This document shows, piece after piece, positions 1,332 through 55,178 of a DNA stretch of 64,000 bases (within the stretch, counting starts at the first letter, position 1; every line of letters begins with the position of its first letter). Origin of the DNA: Bacteroidales bacterium. GTDB lineage: Bacteria > Bacteroidota > Bacteroidia > Bacteroidales > F082. The position numbers and the translations under genes were made by a program. The stretch spans positions 1-64,000 of the forward strand of contig JAFZKP010000047.1 in NCBI GenBank assembly GCA_017553625.1, in the 5' to 3' direction. Below the pieces are notes generated by a model. That model made no database searches, was not told the DNA's origin, and saw nothing but the letters and a program-made list of their open reading frames with translations.

Positions 1332-1363
1332 TTTGCATTTGTCTTAATCTTTGAATATCTTTG
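1332..1363 (+). promoter_or_regulatory. Bacteroidota-type promoter for structured RNA copy 1
   Basis: TTTG at 1332-1335 and TATCTTTG at 1356-1363, separated by 20 bp, match the TTTG/TAnnTTTG promoter pattern of Bacteroidota. Initiation would be expected near 1370. No equally good box lies between the RNA and the 1643 gene, so this may also drive that gene. Confidence 0.7.
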
Positions 1364-1369
1364 CAACGT

Positions 1370-1600
1370 TAAATGAGTATTAGTAAAAGAAATAAAAGGA
1401 ACGAAGATATTAACGACAATTAATAATATAGTATAAAAGCGCTTTCGCTTTTCTTTGTGAAGTCGAAATCTGGTAAATTTCAAAAACTTAGTACACAAGA
1501 AAGTGAAAACGTTCACGGTATCCGTGAACTTTTCTTGTTTGTACTAAAGGTTTTACCAGAACCTCGACTTCAGGCAGAGAGTCTCACGGATTTTTTTATT
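1370..1600 (+). ncRNA. Structured RNA element, copy 1 (unidentified; possible leader or 6S-like RNA)
   Basis: A ~230-nt element runs from a promoter to a T7 run (1591-1597). It has an A-rich 5' leader and a small hairpin (1435-1441 with 1446-1452). A long rod follows: GAAGTCG 1459-1465 with 1565-1571; TCTGGTAAA 1469-1477 with 1552-1560; TTAGTACA 1488-1495 with 1540-1547; CAAGAAAG 1496-1503 with 1530-1537; GTTCACGG 1511-1518 with 1522-1529. A second copy at 49926-50149 (minus) keeps the same helices while changing paired bases, which supports a real RNA structure. TCCGTGA (1521-1527) can instead pair with TCACGGA (1584-1590) just before the T run. It precedes the helicase gene by about 43 bp. 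It could belong to the known Bacteroidales-1/6S-like RNAs; I could not test this. Confidence 0.75.
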
Positions 1601-1642: not shown

Positions 1643-4600
1643 ATGAGCACCAACTTCTTCACCAACCGTAATGGCAATACCCTCATTCAAGAATTTGAGG
1701 GCACATTGGGCAATAATCCGCAAATCAAGAATCTCGATGCCATGGTTGGTTTTCTACGAGCTTCAGGTTATTTCACACTACGCCCGTTTCTTGACAATAT
1801 CAACAAAGTCCGAATACTGATTGGCATTGACGTTGACAAATACATCGCCAGCGCTGAGCAAAAAGGCGAATTGTTTATGGGGGCGGAGGAGGATGTCAAG
1901 GAAGAGTGTCTTCGTATGCTCAAAAACGATATCGAGCAATCGCGTTATACTAAGAAAGTTGAAGACGGCATGCTCCAAATAGTGCAGGACATGCTTGACG
2001 GGAAGCTGGAATTGCGCGCTCATCCTTCAAAAAAGATTCATGCCAAGCTTTATATTCTTTATCCCGACAATTTTAACCAGCATACTTTCGGCGCAGCTAT
2101 CACCGGCAGCAGCAACCTAAGCGGAAACGGCTTGGGTATTGGTGAAGACAAACAATATGAGTTCAATGTCAAGCTGACACAATATGATGATGTTGCGTTT
2201 GCCAAGCAGGAGTTTGAACAGCTTTGGGAAGAGGCTGCCAGTGTTCCGATAAATGCCGAAGACTATCAGTCAACTTTGGATAAGACATATCTTAAAGGTG
2301 ACGTCAGTCCGTACGAGCTTTACATCAAGATGCTGATGGAGTATTTCTCCGACCGAGTGTTGGCTGTCGACAAAGAAGACCCGTTCGATATCCCAAGTAA
2401 ATACGATAAGTTTGAATATCAGACAGATGCAGCCGTTGAAGGCTATCAGAAACTGATTCGTTACGATGGATTCTTCCTCGCTGATGTGGTTGGTCTTGGT
2501 AAAACAGTCGTAGCCACGATGATAGCAAAGAAGTTCTTGATAGAAAATGGTCGTGAAAACACTAAAATTCTCGTGGTTTATCCGCCAGCGGTGGAGCAGA
2601 ACTGGAAGACAACTTTCAAGGATTTTGGAATTGACCAATATGCAAAATTTGTCAGCAACGGCAGTCTGAACAAGGTTCTTGATGACGACAACTATGATTA
2701 TTGGAATGCCGATGAATATGACCTTGTTTTAGTCGATGAGGCCCATAAATTCCGCAACCATACAACAGGAGTATTTCAGCAATTGCAAGAGATTTGTAAG
2801 ATGCCTCGCGTTGAAACCGGCAATATTCCTGGATATAAGAAAAAGGTCATGCTTATTTCAGCAACACCAATGAACAACTCGCCAGCCAACCTTTACTATC
2901 AGATTTTGATGTTCCAAGATCCTCGCCACTGTACCATCGACGGTGTGCCAAACCTGACGGCGTTTTTTTCTCCACTTACCGTGGAATTTAGGAAGATGCG
3001 CAATCAGGAGAACTTCGACTTGACTAAGTTTAAGAAACTTGCCGAAAAAGTCCGCGACAGAGTTATCAAACCATTGACAGTCAGACGCACAAGGACTGAC
3101 ATCGAAAGCGTTGCACGATATAATAAGGACATAAATGGTTTTCCTAAAGTTGCCAAACCGATAAAGAAAGAATATGAGCTTAACGACCATCTGGCGGATT
3201 TGTTTGATGAAGCCATGGATATACTTGACAAAAAGTTGACTTACGCCCGATATCAAGCTATCGCATATCTGAAACCTGAAGTTTCAAAAGGACTTTACGA
3301 CAATGCAAAACTCATTAGCCGTAGCTTGGCTGGAATCAGAAAGAACGGTTTGGTCAAACGATTGGAAAGCAGTTTCCACGCATTCAAGATTTCGGTTGAG
3401 AATTTCCGTCAAGCCAATGAGAATCTGATAAAAATGTGGGAAAACGACAGAATTTTCATTGCTCCAGATATGGATATCAACAAGCTTTATGAACTTGGTT
3501 ATACGGATGATGAAATAGAGGAGAAACTTAACGAAAAAGCAGAGGATAATCCTAAAAACGCAGTGTTTAAGCGCGACGACTTCACTTCTGATTATATCGA
3601 GATGCTTCGCAAAGACCAGCAAATACTTGATGATATGTGCCGTGATTGGGAATGCATCGACGATGAAAAAGATGACTCCAAATTTGCCAAGTTTGAAGAC
3701 CTCTTGAAGCATGAGCTTTTCAAAAAAGAACGTAATCCTGAAGGGAAAATCGTTGTCTTCTCTGAGTCTGTCGATACCATCGAATATCTTGCGCGTCGAA
3801 TAAATCGTAAGGATGTGATTGTGATTTCCGCAAAGAACCGGAGTAATCAGTTCAAGACTATTCGTGAAAATTTTGACGCCAACTATAAAGATAAAAAGGA
3901 CGATTACAACATAATTCTGACGTCTGATGTCCTGGCAGAAGGTGTGAACCTGCATCGCTCCAATATTATAATTAACTATGATACGCCATGGAATTCAACC
4001 CGACTGATGCAGCGTATCGGACGTGTGAATCGTATCGGCTCCAAGTCCAACACCATATACAACTATGTTTTTTATCCGTCTCGACAAGGAAATAAGCAGA
4101 TTAAGTTGAAACAGATAGCTTTGAGTAAAATCCAGACATTCCATACAACTTTTGGCGAAGACAACCAGATTTATTCAACGGAGGAAATCATTGACCGCGA
4201 TTTGGACAAGCTTTTCGATGAAGGCATTAAAAAAGAGCAGGAAGACCGCAATCTTGAACTGCCTTTTTATGAAGAGTTGCGAAACCTTTATCAGCAAAAC
4301 AAAAAGGAATACAACCGCATTGAGAAAATGTCGTTGCGTAGCCGTACAGGACGCGAACATCGTGAGATTGAAGGAGTTACTTTATCTAATGACACCTTGG
4401 TTTTCTTGAAAACAAACTTCCGAAAGGTTTTCTATTTGGTTAACGACGAAGAAGCTAGGGAATTGTCGGTGCTGGATGCTCTGCATTATTTCAAGGCAAA
4501 TAAAGAGGAAAAAGCTGTCGCAAGGATTTTACAGCATCATGAACATGTTGAAAAAGCTGTAAAACAATTTGAGTCTTCAAAAGAAGAAGAGATGCATAAT

Positions 4601-4951
4601 CTTGAGGCAAACCAAAGCCAACGCAGCAATCTCGGCGCTCAAGTTGCAACAGCTATAAATTTGATTAACAATATGTTATCTCATATTGAAGATGGCGATA
4701 CACGTCTGAAACTGGTTCAATTGAGGGAATTGGCTGAGCGAGGCACAATAACATATATCGCCAAACGACTGCAGCGCATACAGAAAGACCTGCAAAGGCA
4801 TGGTGGAAATGCTCCAAAGTTGGCTTTTGAAGATGCATTGAAACAAGTGCTTGAAATGGCTAACCACTACAACGCATATTATCGCGACACACAAAAAGCC
4901 GAGGAAGAATCCGACGCAACCATCATATTATCTGAAAGTTTCCAAAAATAA
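1643..4951 (+). CDS. PLD-nuclease/SF2 (SNF2-like) helicase fusion of a restriction-type defence system
   Basis: 1102 residues. The N-terminal domain is phospholipase-D-like: IHAKLYILY holds H133 and K135, and GSSNLSGNG follows at 155-163. The helicase core follows: DVVGLGKT (Walker A, 281-288), VDEAH (364-368), SATP (406-409), and motifs V/VI around 760-795 (LAEGVNL, QRIGRVNRIGS). The tail is helical and charged. It starts 6 bp upstream of the end-to-end partner methylase. Combining a helicase motor, a PLD-type nuclease and an adjacent adenine methylase suggests restriction-modification. It resembles the DrmD/DrmMI part of DISARM, but no DrmA or DrmB is present. The ATG lies about 43 bp after the structured RNA and no separate consensus promoter was seen. 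Confidence 0.85.
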   Translation: MSTNFFTNRNGNTLIQEFEGTLGNNPQIKNLDAMVGFLRASGYFTLRPFLDNINKVRILIGIDVDKYIASAEQKGELFMGAEEDVKEECLRMLKNDIEQSRYTKKVEDGMLQIVQDMLDGKLELRAHPSKKIHAKLYILYPDNFNQHTFGAAITGSSNLSGNGLGIGEDKQYEFNVKLTQYDDVAFAKQEFEQLWEEAASVPINAEDYQSTLDKTYLKGDVSPYELYIKMLMEYFSDRVLAVDKEDPFDIPSKYDKFEYQTDAAVEGYQKLIRYDGFFLADVVGLGKTVVATMIAKKFLIENGRENTKILVVYPPAVEQNWKTTFKDFGIDQYAKFVSNGSLNKVLDDDNYDYWNADEYDLVLVDEAHKFRNHTTGVFQQLQEICKMPRVETGNIPGYKKKVMLISATPMNNSPANLYYQILMFQDPRHCTIDGVPNLTAFFSPLTVEFRKMRNQENFDLTKFKKLAEKVRDRVIKPLTVRRTRTDIESVARYNKDINGFPKVAKPIKKEYELNDHLADLFDEAMDILDKKLTYARYQAIAYLKPEVSKGLYDNAKLISRSLAGIRKNGLVKRLESSFHAFKISVENFRQANENLIKMWENDRIFIAPDMDINKLYELGYTDDEIEEKLNEKAEDNPKNAVFKRDDFTSDYIEMLRKDQQILDDMCRDWECIDDEKDDSKFAKFEDLLKHELFKKERNPEGKIVVFSESVDTIEYLARRINRKDVIVISAKNRSNQFKTIRENFDANYKDKKDDYNIILTSDVLAEGVNLHRSNIIINYDTPWNSTRLMQRIGRVNRIGSKSNTIYNYVFYPSRQGNKQIKLKQIALSKIQTFHTTFGEDNQIYSTEEIIDRDLDKLFDEGIKKEQEDRNLELPFYEELRNLYQQNKKEYNRIEKMSLRSRTGREHREIEGVTLSNDTLVFLKTNFRKVFYLVNDEEARELSVLDALHYFKANKEEKAVARILQHHEHVEKAVKQFESSKEEEMHNLEANQSQRSNLGAQVATAINLINNMLSHIEDGDTRLKLVQLRELAERGTITYIAKRLQRIQKDLQRHGGNAPKLAFEDALKQVLEMANHYNAYYRDTQKAEEESDATIILSESFQK

Positions 4952-4957
4952 TACGCC

Positions 4958-7900
4958 ATGGATTACAAAGAAGTTATCGAATCGAGGTATAACCGCCAGA
5001 ATTGGCAGAAACTGTTACACGACATTTTTGGCAGCAGAGTGAAGTTTTGGAGCACGCCATCTACTGTTATGACAAGCAGTCCGTTTGCCAAACAAGCGCT
5101 TTGGTTGGGAACAATAACTCTCAGCGACGAACAAACCATCTCAATATATGAAGTGGAACTCGCTGATAGTGTTGATATTGAGCGCAACCGACGCGGCATT
5201 CGCGACATGCTTCTTACTTCTTGGCGTAACAATGGCAATGCTGGCGCTTTTATGTTCTGCTATCGCAAAAATGAGAGTGTATTGCGTTTCTCGTACGTCA
5301 GCGAATCGTGGAAATTTGCCGAAGACGGCACTTATCAGAAGGAGACAACCGACACGAGACGATTTACGTATCTTTTGGGCGAAGGACATCGTAGCCGTAC
5401 AGCCATTCAGCAGTTCCAGAGGTTGCGTGATAGCGAGCTTTCGCTAAAAGACCTGACAAAAGCGTTCTCGGTTGAAGCTGTTAGCGACATGTTCTTCGAC
5501 GGCTACAAGAAGCAGTACGAAAACATCATATTCTACATCACTGGCAAGCGGATGGTTAAGGTCGCCAACAAATGGGAGGAGCGTCTGGAAGGAAAGCCGT
5601 GTGCATACATCATGCAGCAGTTTGCGCATTTTACAAATCCTGAGAAATCGATTCGCGATTATGTCAAAAAACTGATGGGACGCATTGTGTTTCTTCAGTT
5701 TTTGCAGAAGAAAGGATGGCTGGGCGTAGGTGTCAATGAGGAATGGGGTAGTGGTGACCCTGAATTTATACAGAACCTATTTAAAAATTGTAAAGATACA
5801 GACCATTTTGTTGACAATGTTCTTGAGCCGCTTTTCAACGATTTGAATACTGAACGAGCTAACGATGTCTCAAGTTGCGGGAAATATAAAATACCTTATT
5901 TAAATGGTGGTTTGTTTGAACGTGAGGCGACTGACGAGACGGAGTTTCCGCTTCCTGAGAAATACATGCAGTCGCTGCTCGATTTCTTTGCTCAGTATAA
6001 TTTTACTATCGACGAAAACGACCCTGACGATGCCGAAGTAGGTGTTGACCCTGAAATGTTGGGGCGTATCTTTGAAAATCTTCTGGAAGACAACAAGGAC
6101 AAAGGCGCTTTTTACACTCCAAAAGAGATTGTCAGTTACATGTGCCGCGAGAGCTTGATAGCATATCTGCAGACAGGCATCGAAGATGATCAAACAAAAG
6201 AAGCAATACGCCAGTTTGTTACCACGCACCAAATACAGGAAGGTTTGCCAACGAATACCGACCAACTGCTCAAAGATGTGAAGATTTGCGACCCTGCCAT
6301 TGGCTCCGGAGCATTCCCGATGGGCTTGCTGAAAGAGCTTTTCCTCTGTCGCACTGCTTTGGAAGGCATCGACCAGCATCATGCTGCTGAGATTAAGAAG
6401 CACATCATCCAGCAAAACGTTTATGGCGTTGACATTGAGCGCGGCGCCGTTGACATCGCCCGACTTCGTTTTTGGCTATCGCTCATTGTTGATGAGGAAA
6501 CACCGCAGGCGTTGCCGAATTTTGATTATAAATTCATGCAAGGCAATAGTTTAATTGAAAGTTTTGATGGCGTTGATTTGAGTCAGATGATGAGCAATGG
6601 AAGCCAGTTCAGCCGTTATGGAAAGGGCAGGAGTAAAGTTGGGGATAACCAATATGGTATTGAATTTGCGAGTGACGATACGAAACGTAATTTGCAAATG
6701 CAGCTAAAGAAGTATTTCGATATTACCGACCATAGGAAAAAGCTTGAAATGCGACGGAGTATCAACGACAGCGTTAAGAACTATATCAGACAAATGGGAA
6801 TCACACCACCAGCCGAACATCATCTTGCCGCCATCGACCCTTCTGCCAATCAAGAGTTTTTCCTTTGGCATACGTGGTTTAAGGATATTTTTGACAATGG
6901 AGGCTTTGATATTGTGATTGGGAATCCTCCGTATGTATTAATACAAACATTTAAAAATGAAGAGTTAGAGAATACGTATAAAAGGATATACTCTGTCGCT
7001 TCATATAAAATAGACCTATTTCATTTATTTATTGAGCATGGGTATAATATATTAAAAAAAGATAGGGTGCTAACATATATCAACCCAACCACATATTTGA
7101 CAAATAATTACACCCAACCTTTGCGTGATTTATTACTACAAAAAACATGTGTTCTTGGAATAATAAACATAAGTGATGAAGTGTTTGATGCCAGTGTTAA
7201 TACAGGTATTGAAATACTCATTAAAAAGGATCCGGTGAATTCTAGTTTGTTGGGCTACTATAATGCGGAATTTGTAGATTCTATCTTTGAAGTTAACCTT
7301 ATATCTTCTGTAAAACAATTTCATTATTTGGAAACAGAGAAACACATTATCCAACCCATATATTCAAATGATGCAAATAGAATCGCACAAAAAATAGAAC
7401 GGCAAACAGATGTATTGAAAAATCATGCGACTGTAAATTTCGGTATGCAATTAAGAAATCGCAAATTATTTGAAAATGATGTAGTTGTCACTTGCGATGT
7501 CAAGTCTTTAACTGTATATCATAGGAAATGCTTAACAGGTAAAGATATTTTCAACTATTGCTCAATATGGCAACATCGATACTGTTATTTCAATGAAGAA
7601 GCAAGATGTGGCGGTTGTTGGACAGAAAGCGTTCATAATGCAAAGAACAAAATAGTGATTAGACAAGTTGGTTCGACCCCCGTGTGTGGAATTGACACAG
7701 AAGGTTTGGCTGTATTGAATAGTGCATTCATGATTGTTTGTAAGGATTATGATCCATTTGGAGTATTAGGAATTATTAACTCAAAACTGATGCGTTTTTA
7801 TTGGAGTCAAAGATTTGAAGACAAGAGGAAAACTTTTCCAAAGATTAAAGGTTCATATTTGGAATTATTACCCGTTCTAGAACCTTCAGATACAATTATC

Positions 7901-8041
7901 AAACACGTACAAACTATTGTTAAAGCTAAGAAGGGAAATCCTACTATCGATACTACTGAAATAGAATCCGAAATCGATCATCTTGTTTATCAACTTTATG
8001 GGCTGACGGATAAGGAAATAGCGGTGATAGAAGGTAAATAA
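4958..8041 (+). CDS. Eco57I-like N6-adenine DNA methyltransferase
   Basis: 1027 residues, starting 6 bp after the helicase stop, so probably translated from the same message. It carries the SAM-binding motif DPAIGSGAFPMGLL (about 445-458) and the N6-adenine catalytic motif NPPY (about 657-660). YTPKEIVSYMCRESL precedes motif I, as in Eco57I and Type I HsdM-like enzymes. The C-terminal third (about 660-1027) should hold the target-recognition region. From about base 6930 onward the DNA becomes clearly AT-richer than the first two thirds, suggesting that the specificity part has a different history. It should protect self DNA; whether it also cuts is not evident, as I see no separate endonuclease motif. 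Confidence 0.88.
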   Translation: MDYKEVIESRYNRQNWQKLLHDIFGSRVKFWSTPSTVMTSSPFAKQALWLGTITLSDEQTISIYEVELADSVDIERNRRGIRDMLLTSWRNNGNAGAFMFCYRKNESVLRFSYVSESWKFAEDGTYQKETTDTRRFTYLLGEGHRSRTAIQQFQRLRDSELSLKDLTKAFSVEAVSDMFFDGYKKQYENIIFYITGKRMVKVANKWEERLEGKPCAYIMQQFAHFTNPEKSIRDYVKKLMGRIVFLQFLQKKGWLGVGVNEEWGSGDPEFIQNLFKNCKDTDHFVDNVLEPLFNDLNTERANDVSSCGKYKIPYLNGGLFEREATDETEFPLPEKYMQSLLDFFAQYNFTIDENDPDDAEVGVDPEMLGRIFENLLEDNKDKGAFYTPKEIVSYMCRESLIAYLQTGIEDDQTKEAIRQFVTTHQIQEGLPTNTDQLLKDVKICDPAIGSGAFPMGLLKELFLCRTALEGIDQHHAAEIKKHIIQQNVYGVDIERGAVDIARLRFWLSLIVDEETPQALPNFDYKFMQGNSLIESFDGVDLSQMMSNGSQFSRYGKGRSKVGDNQYGIEFASDDTKRNLQMQLKKYFDITDHRKKLEMRRSINDSVKNYIRQMGITPPAEHHLAAIDPSANQEFFLWHTWFKDIFDNGGFDIVIGNPPYVLIQTFKNEELENTYKRIYSVASYKIDLFHLFIEHGYNILKKDRVLTYINPTTYLTNNYTQPLRDLLLQKTCVLGIINISDEVFDASVNTGIEILIKKDPVNSSLLGYYNAEFVDSIFEVNLISSVKQFHYLETEKHIIQPIYSNDANRIAQKIERQTDVLKNHATVNFGMQLRNRKLFENDVVVTCDVKSLTVYHRKCLTGKDIFNYCSIWQHRYCYFNEEARCGGCWTESVHNAKNKIVIRQVGSTPVCGIDTEGLAVLNSAFMIVCKDYDPFGVLGIINSKLMRFYWSQRFEDKRKTFPKIKGSYLELLPVLEPSDTIIKHVQTIVKAKKGNPTIDTTEIESEIDHLVYQLYGLTDKEIAVIEGK

Positions 8042-48563: not shown

Positions 48564-49844
48564 TTAATCTTGGACGAGGCGCACGGATTGCCCGTAGCAC
48601 CGGCTGTAGTAGTCCATGTACACTTCGCTCGAATTGAAGTCGAGGTCCCATGCGTTCTCTGAGCTGTAGGGCGTGGACGACCAATAGTAGCCGTTGGAAC
48701 CCACGTAGTCCACGCTTCCATTGCAATAGCAGTAGCCCTTTGCGGGCAGAACGATTGAATTACCGTTTGGTCCTGTAACCTTATAACCGCTACCATTCCA
48801 AGTCAATTGGCACGAATTTTTTAGTTCCTCAAATTGCTCTTTGGTTGGCAGTTTGTTTCCAAATTTACTTACAGCTTGGTCGTATGTGTAAAAACCGCCC
48901 TCTTCATTTATATCTTTCCACAAAGTTCCACTTGGCAAGCCCAAATCCACAAAGCCTTGTGCCTTGAGACTTGCTAATCTTTCCTGTTTTGCTTGCTCCT
49001 CTGCTGCATTACGTTCTTGTTCTGCTTTAATTCTTGCTTGCCTTTCTTCCTCAGCCTTTCTCTCTTGTTCCATTACAGTCTGATAATCATCACCATCTGA
49101 AACAAGTAGGACCACACCTCTTCTGCTTTCGCGAGTCATATATTCACCGCTGCCAAGATAATTGTTGGCACGCAACAATGCCAATTCTTCATTGGTGGGG
49201 ATACGCCAGTTGTTGTAGCCATGCTGTGCCTGTCTGTTTATTTGGGCGATTACTGAGGTCGGCTCGGCTTGGAATTCTCCCAGCTCATTGGGGAATATCT
49301 TCAAATATCCATACAACACCTCAACCGCAGTGCGTTTTTTGGGACTTACAGGCACTACTGTTGTTGATGGCTTTGCTTGCACCGTAGGTCCTGGTGTTAT
49401 GGCTATTTTGGACGCCAATTTTGTTGCCACATTTTGCATACTGCTACGGTAGGACGACGTGGCAAAAGTCGCCCCTTCTGTAGCCGCTATAGTCCCACTT
49501 TCCACATTAATAACCCGTGCATCAACATTGTATTGGTTCATCACAACATTAATATCGCCAACCACGATTTTTGATACATTTAATATTTTTCCCACCCGAA
49601 CCATTTGACTTTGTGTCATATTTGAACGCTGGAAACCTTGTTCCTCTATAACCTTGTCAATTTGTGTTCGTTCCACCATTGTGTAACCTGAAGGTTGGAA
49701 ATAAGTGATAAAAATGGCAGAAATACCGTCAACATCTGATTGTGATATGCCGACACCTGCTTTAAATTCAAGCACTGCGCAACGCTGTGCCCTAATCGTC
49801 AGTGCAAAGATGCACATCAGGCTTAATAAAAATAGCTTTTTCAT
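48564..49844 (-). CDS. Exported CsgG/LpoB-like protein with C-terminal FISUMP (DUF1566-like) domain
   Basis: 426 residues. MKKLFLLSLMCIFALTIRAQ is a signal peptide. Residues 20-150 (CAVLEFKAGVGISQSDVDGI, TMVERTQIDKVIEEQGFQRS, VSKIVVGDINVVMNQYNVDA) form a CsgG/LpoB-like domain. A linker and an alanine/glutamate-rich coiled coil (about 265-295) lead to FVDLGLPSGTLW and a FISUMP-type domain ending YYWSSTPYSSENAWDLDFNS then YYSRCYGQSVRLVQD. This end is a C-type-lectin-like place where diversity-generating retroelements write variation. The last ~180 bp are more GC-rich than the rest of the gene. The structured RNA copy 2 lies in its leader. Role: probably cell-surface ligand binding. Confidence 0.8.
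   Translation of the reverse strand: MKKLFLLSLMCIFALTIRAQRCAVLEFKAGVGISQSDVDGISAIFITYFQPSGYTMVERTQIDKVIEEQGFQRSNMTQSQMVRVGKILNVSKIVVGDINVVMNQYNVDARVINVESGTIAATEGATFATSSYRSSMQNVATKLASKIAITPGPTVQAKPSTTVVPVSPKKRTAVEVLYGYLKIFPNELGEFQAEPTSVIAQINRQAQHGYNNWRIPTNEELALLRANNYLGSGEYMTRESRRGVVLLVSDGDDYQTVMEQERKAEEERQARIKAEQERNAAEEQAKQERLASLKAQGFVDLGLPSGTLWKDINEEGGFYTYDQAVSKFGNKLPTKEQFEELKNSCQLTWNGSGYKVTGPNGNSIVLPAKGYCYCNGSVDYVGSNGYYWSSTPYSSENAWDLDFNSSEVYMDYYSRCYGQSVRLVQD
48567..48750 (-). other. Candidate DGR variable region at the gene 3' end
   Basis: About 180 bp encode YYWSSTPYSSENAWDLDF... to the stop. Many codons end in C with varied first two bases (TAC, AGC, GAC, TGC, AAC), as expected when AAC codons of a template are altered at A. 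GC content rises sharply against the upstream coding sequence. No template repeat or reverse transcriptase was seen in this window. Confidence 0.45.
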
Positions 49845-49925: not shown

Positions 49926-50149
49926 ATAAAAAACCGTGAAACTTTTTGTTCCAAACCGAGGTTCTGGTAAAACCCTTAATGCAAACAAGAAAGCTCACGG
50001 TTAACTACCGCAAGCGTTTCTCACTTTCTCATGCATTAAGTTTTGAAATTTACCAGATTTCGGTTAGGCTAAGAAAAGCGAAAACGCCTTTTTAATATGT
50101 CTTTATACTTTATTTAACTGTCTGTTTCTTAATGTGTTTGTTTAATTTG
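49926..50149 (-). ncRNA. Structured RNA element, copy 2 (minus strand)
   Basis: It runs from initiation near 50149 to a T6 run (49928-49933). Compared with copy 1 the invariant pieces are AAATCTGGTAAATTTC, AAAGTGA and TTTACCAGAACCTCG. Helices with compensating changes are AACCG/CGGTT (copy 1 GAAGTCG/CGACTTC), TTAATGCA/TGCATTAA (TTAGTACA/TGTACTAA) and GCTTGCGG/CCGTGAGC (GTTCACGG/CCGTGAAC). AACCGTGA can alternatively pair with TCACGGTT next to the T run, as in copy 1. It precedes the CsgG/FISUMP gene by about 80 bp, and no separate consensus promoter was seen between them. Confidence 0.75.
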
Positions 50150-50155
50150 ACACTG

Positions 50156-50163
50156 CAAATTTA
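50156..50163 (-). promoter_or_regulatory. -7 promoter box for structured RNA copy 2
   Basis: TAAATTTG on the minus strand with TTGG about 22 bp upstream. Its distance to the RNA core matches copy 1. Confidence 0.65.
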
Positions 50164-51618: not shown

Positions 51619-52080
51619 TTAAATCTGCTTCAGCAGATTCACCATCTCAATAGCAGTTGTCACTGCATCGTAGCCTTTGTTTCCAGCCTTTGAACCTGCT
51701 CTTTCAACCGCCTGTTCGATGCTGTCGGTTGTGAGAACACCAAAGATTACTGGGACTTCGGTCTGCAAACCGACTTGAGCGATGCCTTTTGTGGCTTCAT
51801 TTGCAACCATGTCGAAATGAGGTGTTGCACCACGGATAACGGCACCAAGGCACACGACTGCGTCGTATTTCTTGCTTGCAGCCATCTTCTTTGCCACGAG
51901 TGGAATCTCGAACGCGCCTGGAACCCAAGCGATATCAATGTTTTTCTCATCGCCGCCGTGACGTTTGAAAGCGTCGATGGCGCCACCTAACAGCTTGTTG
52001 GTGATGATTTCGTTGAAACGGCCAGCCACGATAGCGATTTTCTGGCCTTCAGCCAATAATTTTCCTTCTAATACGTTCAT
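51619..52080 (-). CDS. ribH: 6,7-dimethyl-8-ribityllumazine synthase
   Basis: 153 residues. [32 protein letters not shown] and [23 protein letters not shown] are lumazine-synthase signatures, with the catalytic His in the last. It condenses the pyrimidine from RibD with dihydroxybutanone phosphate from RibBA. It is the last gene of the rib operon, ~127 bp after ribBA; the spacer holds a palindrome and TAACTGA repeats and may carry processing or attenuation signals. Confidence 0.96.
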
Positions 52081-52136
52081 AATTTTTTGATATTTAATTA
52101 TTTATGTTTAATTCTCACTGTTTTTTGTACTTAATT

Positions 52137-52156
52137 AGATGCGATGAATCGCATCT
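52137..52156. repeat. GTAGAGAC-family palindrome (AGATGCGAT arms)
   Basis: AGATGCGAT (52137-52145) and ATCGCATCT (52148-52156) flank GA. CTAC follows, as at the ends of the other copies. Confidence 0.7.
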
Positions 52157-52167
52157 CTACCAACATC

Positions 52168-52226
52168 TTAACTGACTAACTGAACAACTGATTAACTGAT
52201 CAACTGACTAACTGACTAACTGATTA
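52168..52226. repeat. TAACTGAC tandem repeats running into the ribBA 3' end
   Basis: The same degenerate 8-mer series as at 15802-15866. Its right end is read in frame as the last residues of RibBA (NQLVS) and supplies the stop codon. Confidence 0.75.
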
Positions 52227-53434
52227 ACTTCTTTCACGTGCAGCATGTGCCCCATTTTTTTATACTTTGTATATAGATAAAATGCGTCTTTTTCATTGCA
52301 AGTCATTTCAATCGGTTCTCGACCTACAATTTCTATGCCGTATCCTTCCAATCCGCTGATTTTCATTGGGTTGTTGGTCATCACGATGATTTTTTTCGCG
52401 CCTAAATCAGCCAAAATCTCAGCTCCTGTGCCGTAATCTCTTAAATCTGCAGCAAAACCGAGTGCGAGATTAGCCTCGACGGTGTCCATGCCTTTATCCT
52501 GCAAGGTGTAGGCTTTCAGCTTGTTAATCAAACCGATACCACGGCCTTCCTGGCGGAGATAAAGCAGCACGCCCCTGCCCTTTTCCTCGATACGGCGCAT
52601 CGCTTCGTGCAGCTGCTCGCCACAGTCGCAACGCATGGAGCCGAAAGCGTCGCCAGTCAAGCATTCAGAGTGTACGCGGCATAAAACCGGCTCGTCGGTG
52701 CTTAAATCTCCTTTCACCAACGCAACATGGTGCTCGCCAGTGATTTTGTCGACGTAACCGATGGCTTTGAATGTGCCGTATTTCGTCGGCATTTCCGCCT
52801 CAGTCACCTTCTCGACAAGAACTTCTGTCTTTCTGCGATACTTTATCAATTCGGCTATAGAAGTGATTTTCAAATTGTTGGCTTTCGCGAATTGCACCAA
52901 TTCAGTTGTGCGCATCATGGTGCCGTCTTCGCGCATGATTTCACAGCACAGACCGCATTCCTTCAATCCTGCCAGGCGCATCAAATCGACGGTAGCCTCA
53001 GTGTGGCCGCCACGTTTCAGCACTCCACCCTGACGGGCTTCAAGCGGAAACATATGTCCAGGACGACGAAAATCTTCAGCTCTTACGCCATCTTCAACCA
53101 CCTTGCGAGCAGTTATTGAACGTTCCACAGCCGAAATGCCGGTCGTGGTGTCCCTGTAGTCGATTGAAACCGTGAACGCGGTGCAGTGATTGTCAGTGTT
53201 TTCCACCACCATCTGGTTGAGTTTCAAGCGTTTGCATATATCCGAGCTCATCGGCATGCAAATCAATCCCTTGCCGTATGACGCCATAAAATTCACGTTC
53301 TCGACGGTCGCAAACTCAGCCGCACAAATCAAATCACCCTCGTTTTCGCGGTCAGGGTCATCAACCACGATGATCATCTTGCCGGCGCGAAGGTCGTCCA
53401 AAGCTTCCTCAATAGTATTAAAATCCTTGTTCAT
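52208..53434 (-). CDS. ribBA: Bifunctional DHBP synthase / GTP cyclohydrolase II
   Basis: 408 residues. The RibB half has [39 protein letters not shown]-like text ([17 protein letters not shown]) and [20 protein letters not shown]. The RibA half carries the zinc/GTP motif [21 protein letters not shown] (read as [18 protein letters not shown]) and [17 protein letters not shown]. It makes both starting materials of riboflavin. It starts 5 bp after ribE. The last residues come from a TAACTGA repeat. Confidence 0.96.
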
Positions 53435-53439
53435 TTATA

Positions 53440-54081
53440 TTAAAAATTATTATCTTTCAATAAGTTAAGCAGTTTTTCGTCGTGTTGGAACGTGATGTTG
53501 CCAACAAACTTTTCGATATATTTTCCAACGATGTCGTTCTCCAAATTCACGGTATCGCCAATCTTTTTCTTGGTTAAAGTCGTCGCATCCTGAGTGTGCT
53601 CAATAATCGAAACTCCGAAATCGAAACTTGTTACATCAGTGACTGTCAACGAGATGCCGTCAATAGTGATGGAGCCTTTCTCAACAATGTAACGCAAAAT
53701 CTCAGGTCGTGTTTCAATTCTGATTCTGACAGCCTTATCGTCTTTGGTCATTTTTGAGACAAAACCGATACCATCAATATGACCGGAAACTATATGTCCA
53801 CCGAAGCGACCATTGGCCAGCATCGCGCGTTCACAATTTACCAAATCATTGATTCTCAAATCTTTGAAATTGGTTCGGTTCATTGTTTCCGGCATCACGT
53901 CGGCTGTGTAAGAACTGTCATCAAAGGTTGTAACTGTCAAACAAACGCCGTTTGTGCAGATGCTGTCGCCGATATGGATGTCCTCCAAAATCTTCTTCAC
54001 TGCAATAGTCAGTTTGATGCTGTTTGCATGACGAACTATCGCCTTCACCTTGCCGATTTCTTCAATTATTCCCGTGAACAT
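53440..54081 (-). CDS. ribE: Riboflavin synthase alpha chain
   Basis: 213 residues. MFTGIIEEIGKVKAI opens the first lumazine-binding repeat; SICTNGVCLTVTTFD and NGRFGGHIVSGHIDGIGFV are catalytic-site segments. The second repeat begins near residue 100 with KGSITIDGISLTVTDV. It dismutates two lumazines to riboflavin. Its start lies inside the ribD 3' end (16 bp overlap), which indicates translational coupling. Confidence 0.95.
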   Translation of the reverse strand: MFTGIIEEIGKVKAIVRHANSIKLTIAVKKILEDIHIGDSICTNGVCLTVTTFDDSSYTADVMPETMNRTNFKDLRINDLVNCERAMLANGRFGGHIVSGHIDGIGFVSKMTKDDKAVRIRIETRPEILRYIVEKGSITIDGISLTVTDVTSFDFGVSIIEHTQDATTLTKKKIGDTVNLENDIVGKYIEKFVGNITFQHDEKLLNLLKDNNF

Positions 54082-55178
54082 ATCTTTCCTTTTATTAAAA
54101 CATCTCCGTTAATATTTTGAATGTCAATGTTTTGCAATTGTATTGCGTCGCTCATTTTATCGAATCCTTTGCCGGAAACAGGTGTTTTTGCATCTTCACC
54201 GCCAATGATTTTCGGTGCTATAAATGCCCACACCTCATCAACGCAGCCAGCCTCCAAAAACGCCGCATTCAATGTTCCGCCGCCTTCCAATAATAATGAA
54301 TCAATGCCCATTGCACCTATTTTTTTCATCAAATCGTTGATATCAACGTGACCGTTATTTGATTTGCATTCAAGGATTTCGATGTCCGTAGAGACGCACG
54401 GCCGTGCGTCTCTACAATCGTCGCGTTTGATTGTCGCAACAATTGTTCTGTATTCTTTCGCCGTCTTAACCAATTTAGAATCAATCGGTATTCTCAATTT
54501 TGAATCAACGACTATTCTAATCGGTTGATGCGGATTTCCTTCCAGCCTGACATTCAGCATCGGGTCATCGGCTAATACGGTGCCAATTCCAACGATAACG
54601 CCTGAAAGCTCGCTTCTGAGCTCATGAACCATCTTTCGGGACTCATCGCTCGTCACCCACCTCGAATCGCCCGTGTGAGCCGCTATTTTGCCGTCGAGGG
54701 TCATTGCAGTCTTCATGATGACATAAGGACGCTTGGTGGTGATGTATTTCAGAAAAACCTTGTTCAATTCACGAATTTCATCTTCACAAAGCCCTACTTC
54801 AACCTCAATGCCCGCATCTTGCAAAATATTAACGCCTTTCCCCGCAACCAGAGGATTTGGGTCAAGGATGCCAACAAAGACTTTTTTGATGCCTTTTTCA
54901 ATGATAATTTCGGTGCAAGGGGGCGTTTTCCCGTAGTGGCAGCAAGGTTCAAGTGTCACATAAAGTGAAGCACCTTTAGTATCTGATTGACAACGTAATA
55001 ATGCATTACGTTCAGCGTGAAATTCGCCGTATTTCTCATGGTAACCTTCAGCGACAATCTCTCCGTCTTTCACCACCACGCATCCCACCAAAGGATTAGG
55101 ATGGACGAAGCCTCCGCCCTTCTTCGCGAGCTCAATTGCCCGCCTCATGTACTCGATGTCTTTTCCGCTATATAACAT
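54066..55178 (-). CDS. ribD: Bifunctional pyrimidine deaminase / reductase
   Basis: 370 residues. The deaminase half has FHAERNALLRC and EPCCHYGKTPPCTEIII (zinc ligands). The reductase half begins near PYVIMKTAMTLDGKIAAHTG and has GVIVGIGTVLADDPMLNVR. It performs steps 2 and 3 of riboflavin synthesis. It is the first rib gene; its ATG is at the end of the terminator of the FMN riboswitch. Around residue 255, CRDARPCVST is encoded by a palindrome (54388-54415) and looks like an in-frame insertion in a surface loop. Confidence 0.95.
   Translation of the reverse strand: MLYSGKDIEYMRRAIELAKKGGGFVHPNPLVGCVVVKDGEIVAEGYHEKYGEFHAERNALLRCQSDTKGASLYVTLEPCCHYGKTPPCTEIIIEKGIKKVFVGILDPNPLVAGKGVNILQDAGIEVEVGLCEDEIRELNKVFLKYITTKRPYVIMKTAMTLDGKIAAHTGDSRWVTSDESRKMVHELRSELSGVIVGIGTVLADDPMLNVRLEGNPHQPIRIVVDSKLRIPIDSKLVKTAKEYRTIVATIKRDDCRDARPCVSTDIEILECKSNNGHVDINDLMKKIGAMGIDSLLLEGGGTLNAAFLEAGCVDEVWAFIAPKIIGGEDAKTPVSGKGFDKMSDAIQLQNIDIQNINGDVLIKGKICSRE
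54388..54415. repeat. Perfect 28-bp GTAGAGAC palindrome inside ribD
   Basis: GTAGAGACGCACGG and its exact complement CCGTGCGTCTCTAC. It is read on the minus strand as part of RibD with no frame disruption. Confidence 0.85.

Follow-up and report, generated by a model that had tools for sequence, protein, structure and literature searches.

Two segments of a 64,000-nucleotide stretch of Bacteroidales DNA (the window) had been proposed in a preliminary description to encode the same structured RNA, which raises the question of what this RNA is and what it does for the genes beside it. Both elements were borne out, at 1370-1600 on the forward strand and at ~49926-50149 on the reverse strand, each comprising a promoter, an A-rich leader, a small hairpin, a long rod and a terminal T run (Table 1). 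The promoter of copy 1 is of the Bacteroidota type, and its leader holds a single ATG opening a very short frame. Native sequences fold more stably than every one of their dinucleotide shuffles (n=200 per copy), with fold z-scores of -4.44 for copy 1 and -4.77 for copy 2.

Table 1. Features of the two window elements and of the genes that follow them (P1 to P3, rod helices; A and T, strands of the apical hairpin; T', segment just before the U-run)
Feature	Position	Strand	Details and basis
Copy 1 promoter	1332..1363	+	TTTG 1332-1335, TATCTTTG 1356-1363; from sequence
Copy 1 A-rich leader	1370..1434	+	from sequence
Copy 1 5' hairpin	1435..1452	+	AAAAGCG-CTTT-CGCTTTT; fold, conserved in alignments
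Copy 1 rod	1459..1571	+	folds and alignments (covariation)
Copy 1 rod P1	1459-1466/1564-1571	+	
Copy 1 rod P2	1469-1475/1554-1560	+	
Copy 1 rod P3	1487-1495/1540-1549	+	
Copy 1 rod apical hairpin	A 1511-1518 / T 1522-1529	+	
Copy 1 alternative terminator stem (predicted)	1520..1591	+	T ATCCGTGA 1520-1527 : T' TCACGGAT 1584-1591; extendable inwards
Copy 1 U-run	1591..1597	+	from sequence
Gene after copy 1	1643..4951	+	SNF2-type helicase, weak PLD-like match below Pfam cut-off; PADLOC HKD+Snf2; defence-like
Second gene after copy 1	4958-8041	+	resembles type IIG restriction enzyme-methylases
Copy 2 promoter box	50156..50163	-	TAAATTTG; from sequence
Copy 2 element core	49927..50101	-	sequence, fold, covariance model, stem pairing
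Copy 2 5' hairpin	~50075-50093	-	
Copy 2 T	49994-50002	-	
Copy 2 T'	49932-49940	-	
Copy 2 U-run	49928-49933	-	
Gene after copy 2	48564..49844	-	signal-peptide-like start; CsgG and Lcl_C above Pfam cut-offs, Fib_succ_major (FISUMP) below

Selection has acted on the structure of this RNA, and related genomes contain many homologues that covary. The compensating changes first reported between the two copies are confirmed by RNAalifold on a structure-free MAFFT alignment of 11 same-genome copies, not fitted to a covariance model, which returns 52 pairs, 19 of them with double changes. In a 96-sequence alignment (A7) that is fitted to a covariance model, 96.1% of rod cells are paired versus 66.1% in shuffles, double changes occur at 32 of the 34 rod pairs, and the rod covariation score is 0.829, as against 0.227 for shuffles and at most 0.111 for slid partners; the rod helices also keep G-U pairs. 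The words CTGGTAAA and TTTACCAG, previously described as conserved and unpaired, are in fact perfectly complementary and pair as the rod's middle helix (P2), whose pairing reaches 99.7% across the 96 sequences with both-side changes in all seven pairs. A structure-blind mutual-information list, computed on the model-fitted alignment, has rod pairs as its top 21 column pairs: 20 belong to the model and one extends P3. Two further hairpins, Pa and Pb, have 84-89% of their cells paired and show double changes (GC to UA 9, GC to AU 7, AU to GC 7 and UA to CG 7). They are probable rather than proven, because the pairs with double changes, counted jointly with P2, do not exceed the shuffle level (10 versus 10.0); one Pb pair stands at rank 39 of the mutual-information list with a score near background. 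One locus, L033 (G000:C36:3513-3661), is a natural deletion: P2 is without its first strand and P1 without most of its own, yet the 5' hairpin, T, T' and the U-run are retained.

The RNA had been suggested to be 6S-like or Bacteroidales-1 and otherwise to represent a new family. All 4227 models of Rfam 15 were run, at gathering score and, on the window elements, also at E up to 10. Neither window element matched either family even at E <=10, the only matches lying far below the family cut-offs, and 36 further loci gave no match over the element at gathering score. Since no Rfam 15 family matched the elements scanned, 6S and Bacteroidales-1 are unsupported and the proposal of a new family, in the sense of one outside Rfam 15, holds. 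6S RNA and 6S-Flavo do share with the element a long rod with internal loops, but 6S RNA is a stand-alone gene present in one or two copies, whereas the element has 22 gene-linked matches in its genome; with no 6S match at E <=10 to the two window elements, 6S RNA was rejected. Bacteroidales-1 was rejected for want of an RF01693 match over the window elements. It is named with Bacteroides-1, Bacteroid-trp and Flavo-1 in Table 1 of PMC2864571; all four are likewise structured RNA candidates of Bacteroidota, but differ from the element in that no Rfam match was found over it, in the window or at the 36 loci. The FopS/GibS sRNA family of Bacteroides resembles it as a multicopy RNA with a terminator in the same phylum, FopS being described in PMC11697453 as a trans-acting RNA with a single-stranded 5' stretch and a terminator hairpin. 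FopS was rejected as an identification because the element has a long covarying rod instead; it also has no match in Rfam release 15, which may lack a FopS model.

A search of mainly open-access journal literature, including passages of PMC11697453, PMC8040213, PMC2864571, PMC9723704 and PMC7366714, yielded no description of the element; it may still be one of the 3161 motifs of PMC8040213 or the 64 structured 5' regions of PMC9723704. The window contains an FMN riboswitch (RF00050, 55234-55353, reverse strand) ahead of genes at 51619-55178 that are riboflavin operon-like by their translated starts, and a Bacteroidales small SRP RNA (RF04183, 14282-14388, forward strand); at another locus a DUF805b cis-regulatory motif (RF02914, L228:1714-1749) is found ~32 nt beyond an element, ahead of the gene.

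Two copies are too few for the genome as a whole. DNA comparison found 13, the others being 69-78% identical to copy 1, and a covariance model built from 11 host-genome copies (R1) gave 22 matches at E <=0.001, the weakest at 3.2e-4; a pattern search of the host genome likewise recovers both window elements. The covarying homologues sought with R1 in related genomes were found in 58 of 60 genomes of the genus, including all 26 that were >=90% complete and <=5% contaminated. A second model (R2, 91 members, threshold E <=1e-5) matched 78 of 149 genomes (4 of 16 genera) in a sample of the family, 156 of 393 (96 of 206 genera) in the order, 108 of 396 (61 of 196 genera) in the class and 55 of 395 in the phylum, ten of the last outside the class; these samples overlap partly, and the genome of the window is among them. 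Copy numbers are minimum values, because the surveys scored part of the candidates (7 to 150 per genome). Within the family sample, the window's genus supplies 74 of the 78 genomes with a match, although the RNA also occurs in many other families of the order; so uneven a distribution suggests that it has been lost or transferred.

An exact-pattern search gave 86 related stretches. Among the 80 listed, one is from Sulfurimonas and the others are uncultured Bacteroidales, Bacteroidia or Bacteroidetes by title, largely from ruminant and horse gut. When R2 was applied to ten exact-pattern loci, all nine from Bacteroidota matched. The Sulfurimonas contig (L126) was dismissed as chance-like, with no model match in the locus or its genome; as the only genome searched outside the phylum it is a weak negative control, whose empty answer shows little. 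Plasmid records gave no match in blastn searches with copy 1 only, and viral contigs none to one exact pattern, which fits only the subfamily near copy 1. The leader RNA family is real and widespread, and we found no earlier description of it.

The position expected of a transcription attenuator, between a promoter and a gene on the same strand, is the one observed. The next gene is on the same strand at 85 of 89 elements in a first set (90 elements after one duplicate was dropped) and at 36 of 38 in a second, 121 of 127 in total; the upstream gene is on the same strand at 57 of 89. Distances are short: in the first set the median to the next gene is 46 nt and a same-strand gene lies within 150 nt of 79 of 90 elements, and in the second (40 further elements, mostly order- or class-level; among the 38, L213 repeats L071 of the first set and L210 is from the window's genus) 28 of the 36 same-strand genes are at <=150 nt and none is beyond 350 nt, neighbouring genes being called throughout with a simple in-house ORF caller. 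Among 122 elements with enough flank, 109 have the box TAnnTTTG within 120 nt before the element, compared with 10 in the reversed-sequence control; within 120 nt from the U-run onward the box occurs at 8, no excess over the control value of 7. The same-strand next gene and the lack of a promoter-box excess in between point to a leader acting in cis, and from the latter it follows that the gene most likely depends on read-through. The genes after the two window copies do differ, as had been noted; calling them unrelated, and by implication beside the point, does not fit the count of 121 in 127.

Among the genes downstream, many code for exported surface proteins or for proteins of restriction and defence. 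In a genus set of 80 first downstream genes (same strand, <=200 nt), Pfam at E <=0.001 gave ResIII 13, PLDc_2 11, MmeI methylase 7, PEGA 4 and CsgG 2, and PADLOC at E <=0.001 without curated cut-offs gave type I methylase 10 and HKD+Snf2 10; 11 of the proteins start like the copy 1 helicase and seven like one methylase family. A strongly hydrophobic N-terminal stretch is present in 37 of the 80 by a strict hydrophobicity rule, which replaced a first signal-peptide rule that returned 48 but flagged seven helicases too. The 36 genes of the second set include TonB plug (7), BspA leucine-rich repeats (4) and one each of peptidase C10, LytTR, sigma-70 and ResIII; score and genome guided the choice of samples, so none of these gene-class shares is unbiased. 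The genes are thus a mixture of surface, restriction/defence and regulator functions, in which a shared pathway for one ligand was not found. Upstream of homologues of the copy 1 gene in the genus, a leader match is present at 22 of 30 loci (30 of 33 homologue matches examined). Small proteins of 74-107 aa with an HIGxxIxxxLKxQxRS-like stretch near the start follow L035, L038, L042, L077, L088, L098, L104 and L106; the three searched (L035, L042, L077) had no Pfam match at E <=0.01.

The 3' end of the element offers a second structure. In most elements T, the 3' strand of the top hairpin, has two potential partners: A, inside the rod, and T', the segment just before the U-run. Over 125 elements (126 after L033, L042, L043 and two duplicates were dropped, less L088, which has no U-run), and with the tested T' window extended 3 nt into the U-run, the T:T' duplex has a mean energy of -20.6 kcal/mol and reaches -8 or better in 121. 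Reversing T' gives a mean of -8.9 kcal/mol, with -8 or better in 77 of 125, and permuting partners (n=1000) a mean of -14.2 (sd 0.32, lowest -15.3); a simple stem score in 90 elements is 22.0 for own partners versus 17.1 for permuted ones (sd 0.35, highest 18.1 in 2000), although both permutation margins are inflated because partner permutations ignore sequence kinship. The rival A:T pairing averages -19.3 kcal/mol, so the two are closely matched, T:T' being the stronger in 94 of 125. In 119 of 125 elements the T:T' stem ends <=3 nt from where the U-run starts, and in six it ends farther away; the loop between T and T' has a median of 30 nt, and four of the 90 elements match poorly (L036, L042, L043 and L068); we take some of these poor or misplaced stems for faulty parsing.

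By column, 84.5% of T:T' cells are paired, compared with 77.0% in shuffles and 35-50% for slid partners, and the covariation score is 0.314 versus 0.191; none of 500 shuffles reaches either figure. Cells with double changes exceed all 500 shuffles, whereas the count of double-change pairs stays within the shuffle range (5 versus 3.8, reached in 123 of 500). T:T' pairs, which lie outside the model, appear at ranks 24 and 43 of the mutual-information list with scores near background. Two mutually exclusive stems, one of them terminator-like at the U-run, are thus conserved by covariation, with the number of double-change pairs at the shuffle level.

This terminator/antiterminator anatomy, together with the positions of promoter and gene, leads us to conclude that the element is probably a cis-acting transcription attenuator, a leader RNA like a riboswitch or a protein-sensing antiterminator. 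Structure, covariation, alternative stem and the places of promoter and gene are read from the DNA itself; expression, termination, read-through, a signal and its identity, and the direction of the switch are what we infer from them. RNA started at the promoter would fold into the long rod, and polymerase would then read through into the gene. Were T of the top hairpin to pair instead with T', the last segment before the U-run, an intrinsic terminator would form and transcription would stop. The choice between folds would most likely be made by a recogniser of the conserved rod loops (GAAA..UUUC and AGGU..ACCU around the middle helix), and our guess is that binding of the rod switches the gene on. 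The energies count against so simple a scheme: the nested T:T' fold is a median 13.4 kcal/mol less stable than the best fold of the leader, the rod, and within 3 kcal/mol of it in 7 of 125. By energy the rod would therefore be the default fold, and transcription could terminate only if the rod closed slowly, if a factor intervened or if a pseudoknot formed; the need for such a kinetic, factor-driven or pseudoknot decision is the weakest step of the attenuator reading. Also against it are the lack of an obvious metabolite common to the regulated genes and the 8 of 30 copy 1-gene homologue loci without a leader match.

What might decide between the folds divides the attenuator reading in two. 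The element may be a true riboswitch that senses one small molecule directly and governs one surface and defence regulon, a possibility that we hold to be somewhat short of even. Like riboswitches with intrinsic-terminator platforms, it is a 5' leader with a covarying fold and an alternative stem before the gene; its conserved words flank variable helices, its platform is conserved together with the rod, and it occurs in many copies per genome, as do c-di-GMP riboswitches. It differs from such riboswitches in that the top hairpin of a long rod supplies the competing strand, the genes do not form one evident pathway and a ligand is only conjectured. Just as tentatively, a protein or the elongation complex may decide (a NusG paralogue, an RRM protein or another RNA chaperone), as in processive antitermination leaders. 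NusG-paralogue control of surface genes is known in Bacteroidota, and UpxY/LoaP leaders stand before surface-polysaccharide or other large operons, so that long leaders before surface genes, with possible conditional read-through, would fit. However, those leaders are not known to share the fold of the element, and by presence or absence in samples of 149 genomes of the same family neither NusG-domain genes (144 of 149) nor RRM genes (121 of 149) track the RNA (78 of 149), since they are found in genomes with and without it.

Outside the attenuator reading, the likeliest alternative is a stand-alone, multicopy, FopS-like sRNA that terminates at the U-run, works in trans and stands before genes by accident. 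Its own promoter and U-run and the many copies would suit such an RNA, and a terminated leader of ~225 nt would exist in any case. We nevertheless consider it improbable: a gene on the same strand follows 121 of 127 elements, promoter boxes between the RNA and its gene show no excess over the control (8 of 122 versus 7), and the terminator of an sRNA needs no competing partner inside a rod. Ribosome-mediated attenuation by a leader peptide would share the terminator/antiterminator anatomy and is highly improbable; it was rejected for the lack of any sign of a conserved leader ORF in the family and the depletion of ATG, which occurs in 37 of 109 leaders versus 76.3 expected from mononucleotide shuffles, with frames of >=6 codons in 14 versus 60.2 expected (ATG starts only, leader start inferred from the promoter box). 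Least probable of all is that the element is mobile DNA, a repeat or the edge of a cassette, and not an RNA. Its patchy spread and many dispersed copies might speak for this; against it stand the orientation to gene and promoter, the G-U pairs kept in the helices, the far lower score of the opposite strand where seen (L225, 44 versus 118 bits) and the identity of 69-78% between the other host copies and copy 1.

Beyond the attenuator itself, it is conceivable, though on balance doubtful, that the leaders constitute a Bacteroidota-wide switch class answering to a single common signal, with a large regulon (>=20 leaders in some genomes) that couples surface display (TonB receptors, BspA repeats, CsgG/FISUMP) with restriction and other phage defence. 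Its core would be a four-way junction in which the GAAA:UUUC and AGGU:ACCU hairpins kiss through complementary variable loops, open into the rod and set the terminator. If this is true, a large phylum of the gut and the environment has a common, unlisted RNA control element upstream of the genes through which it meets hosts, food and phages. The leaders would form an orphan switch class whose covariation is strong enough to guide a search for its ligand or protein, and the gating of Bacteroidota surface and defence genes after transcription start would become directly testable.
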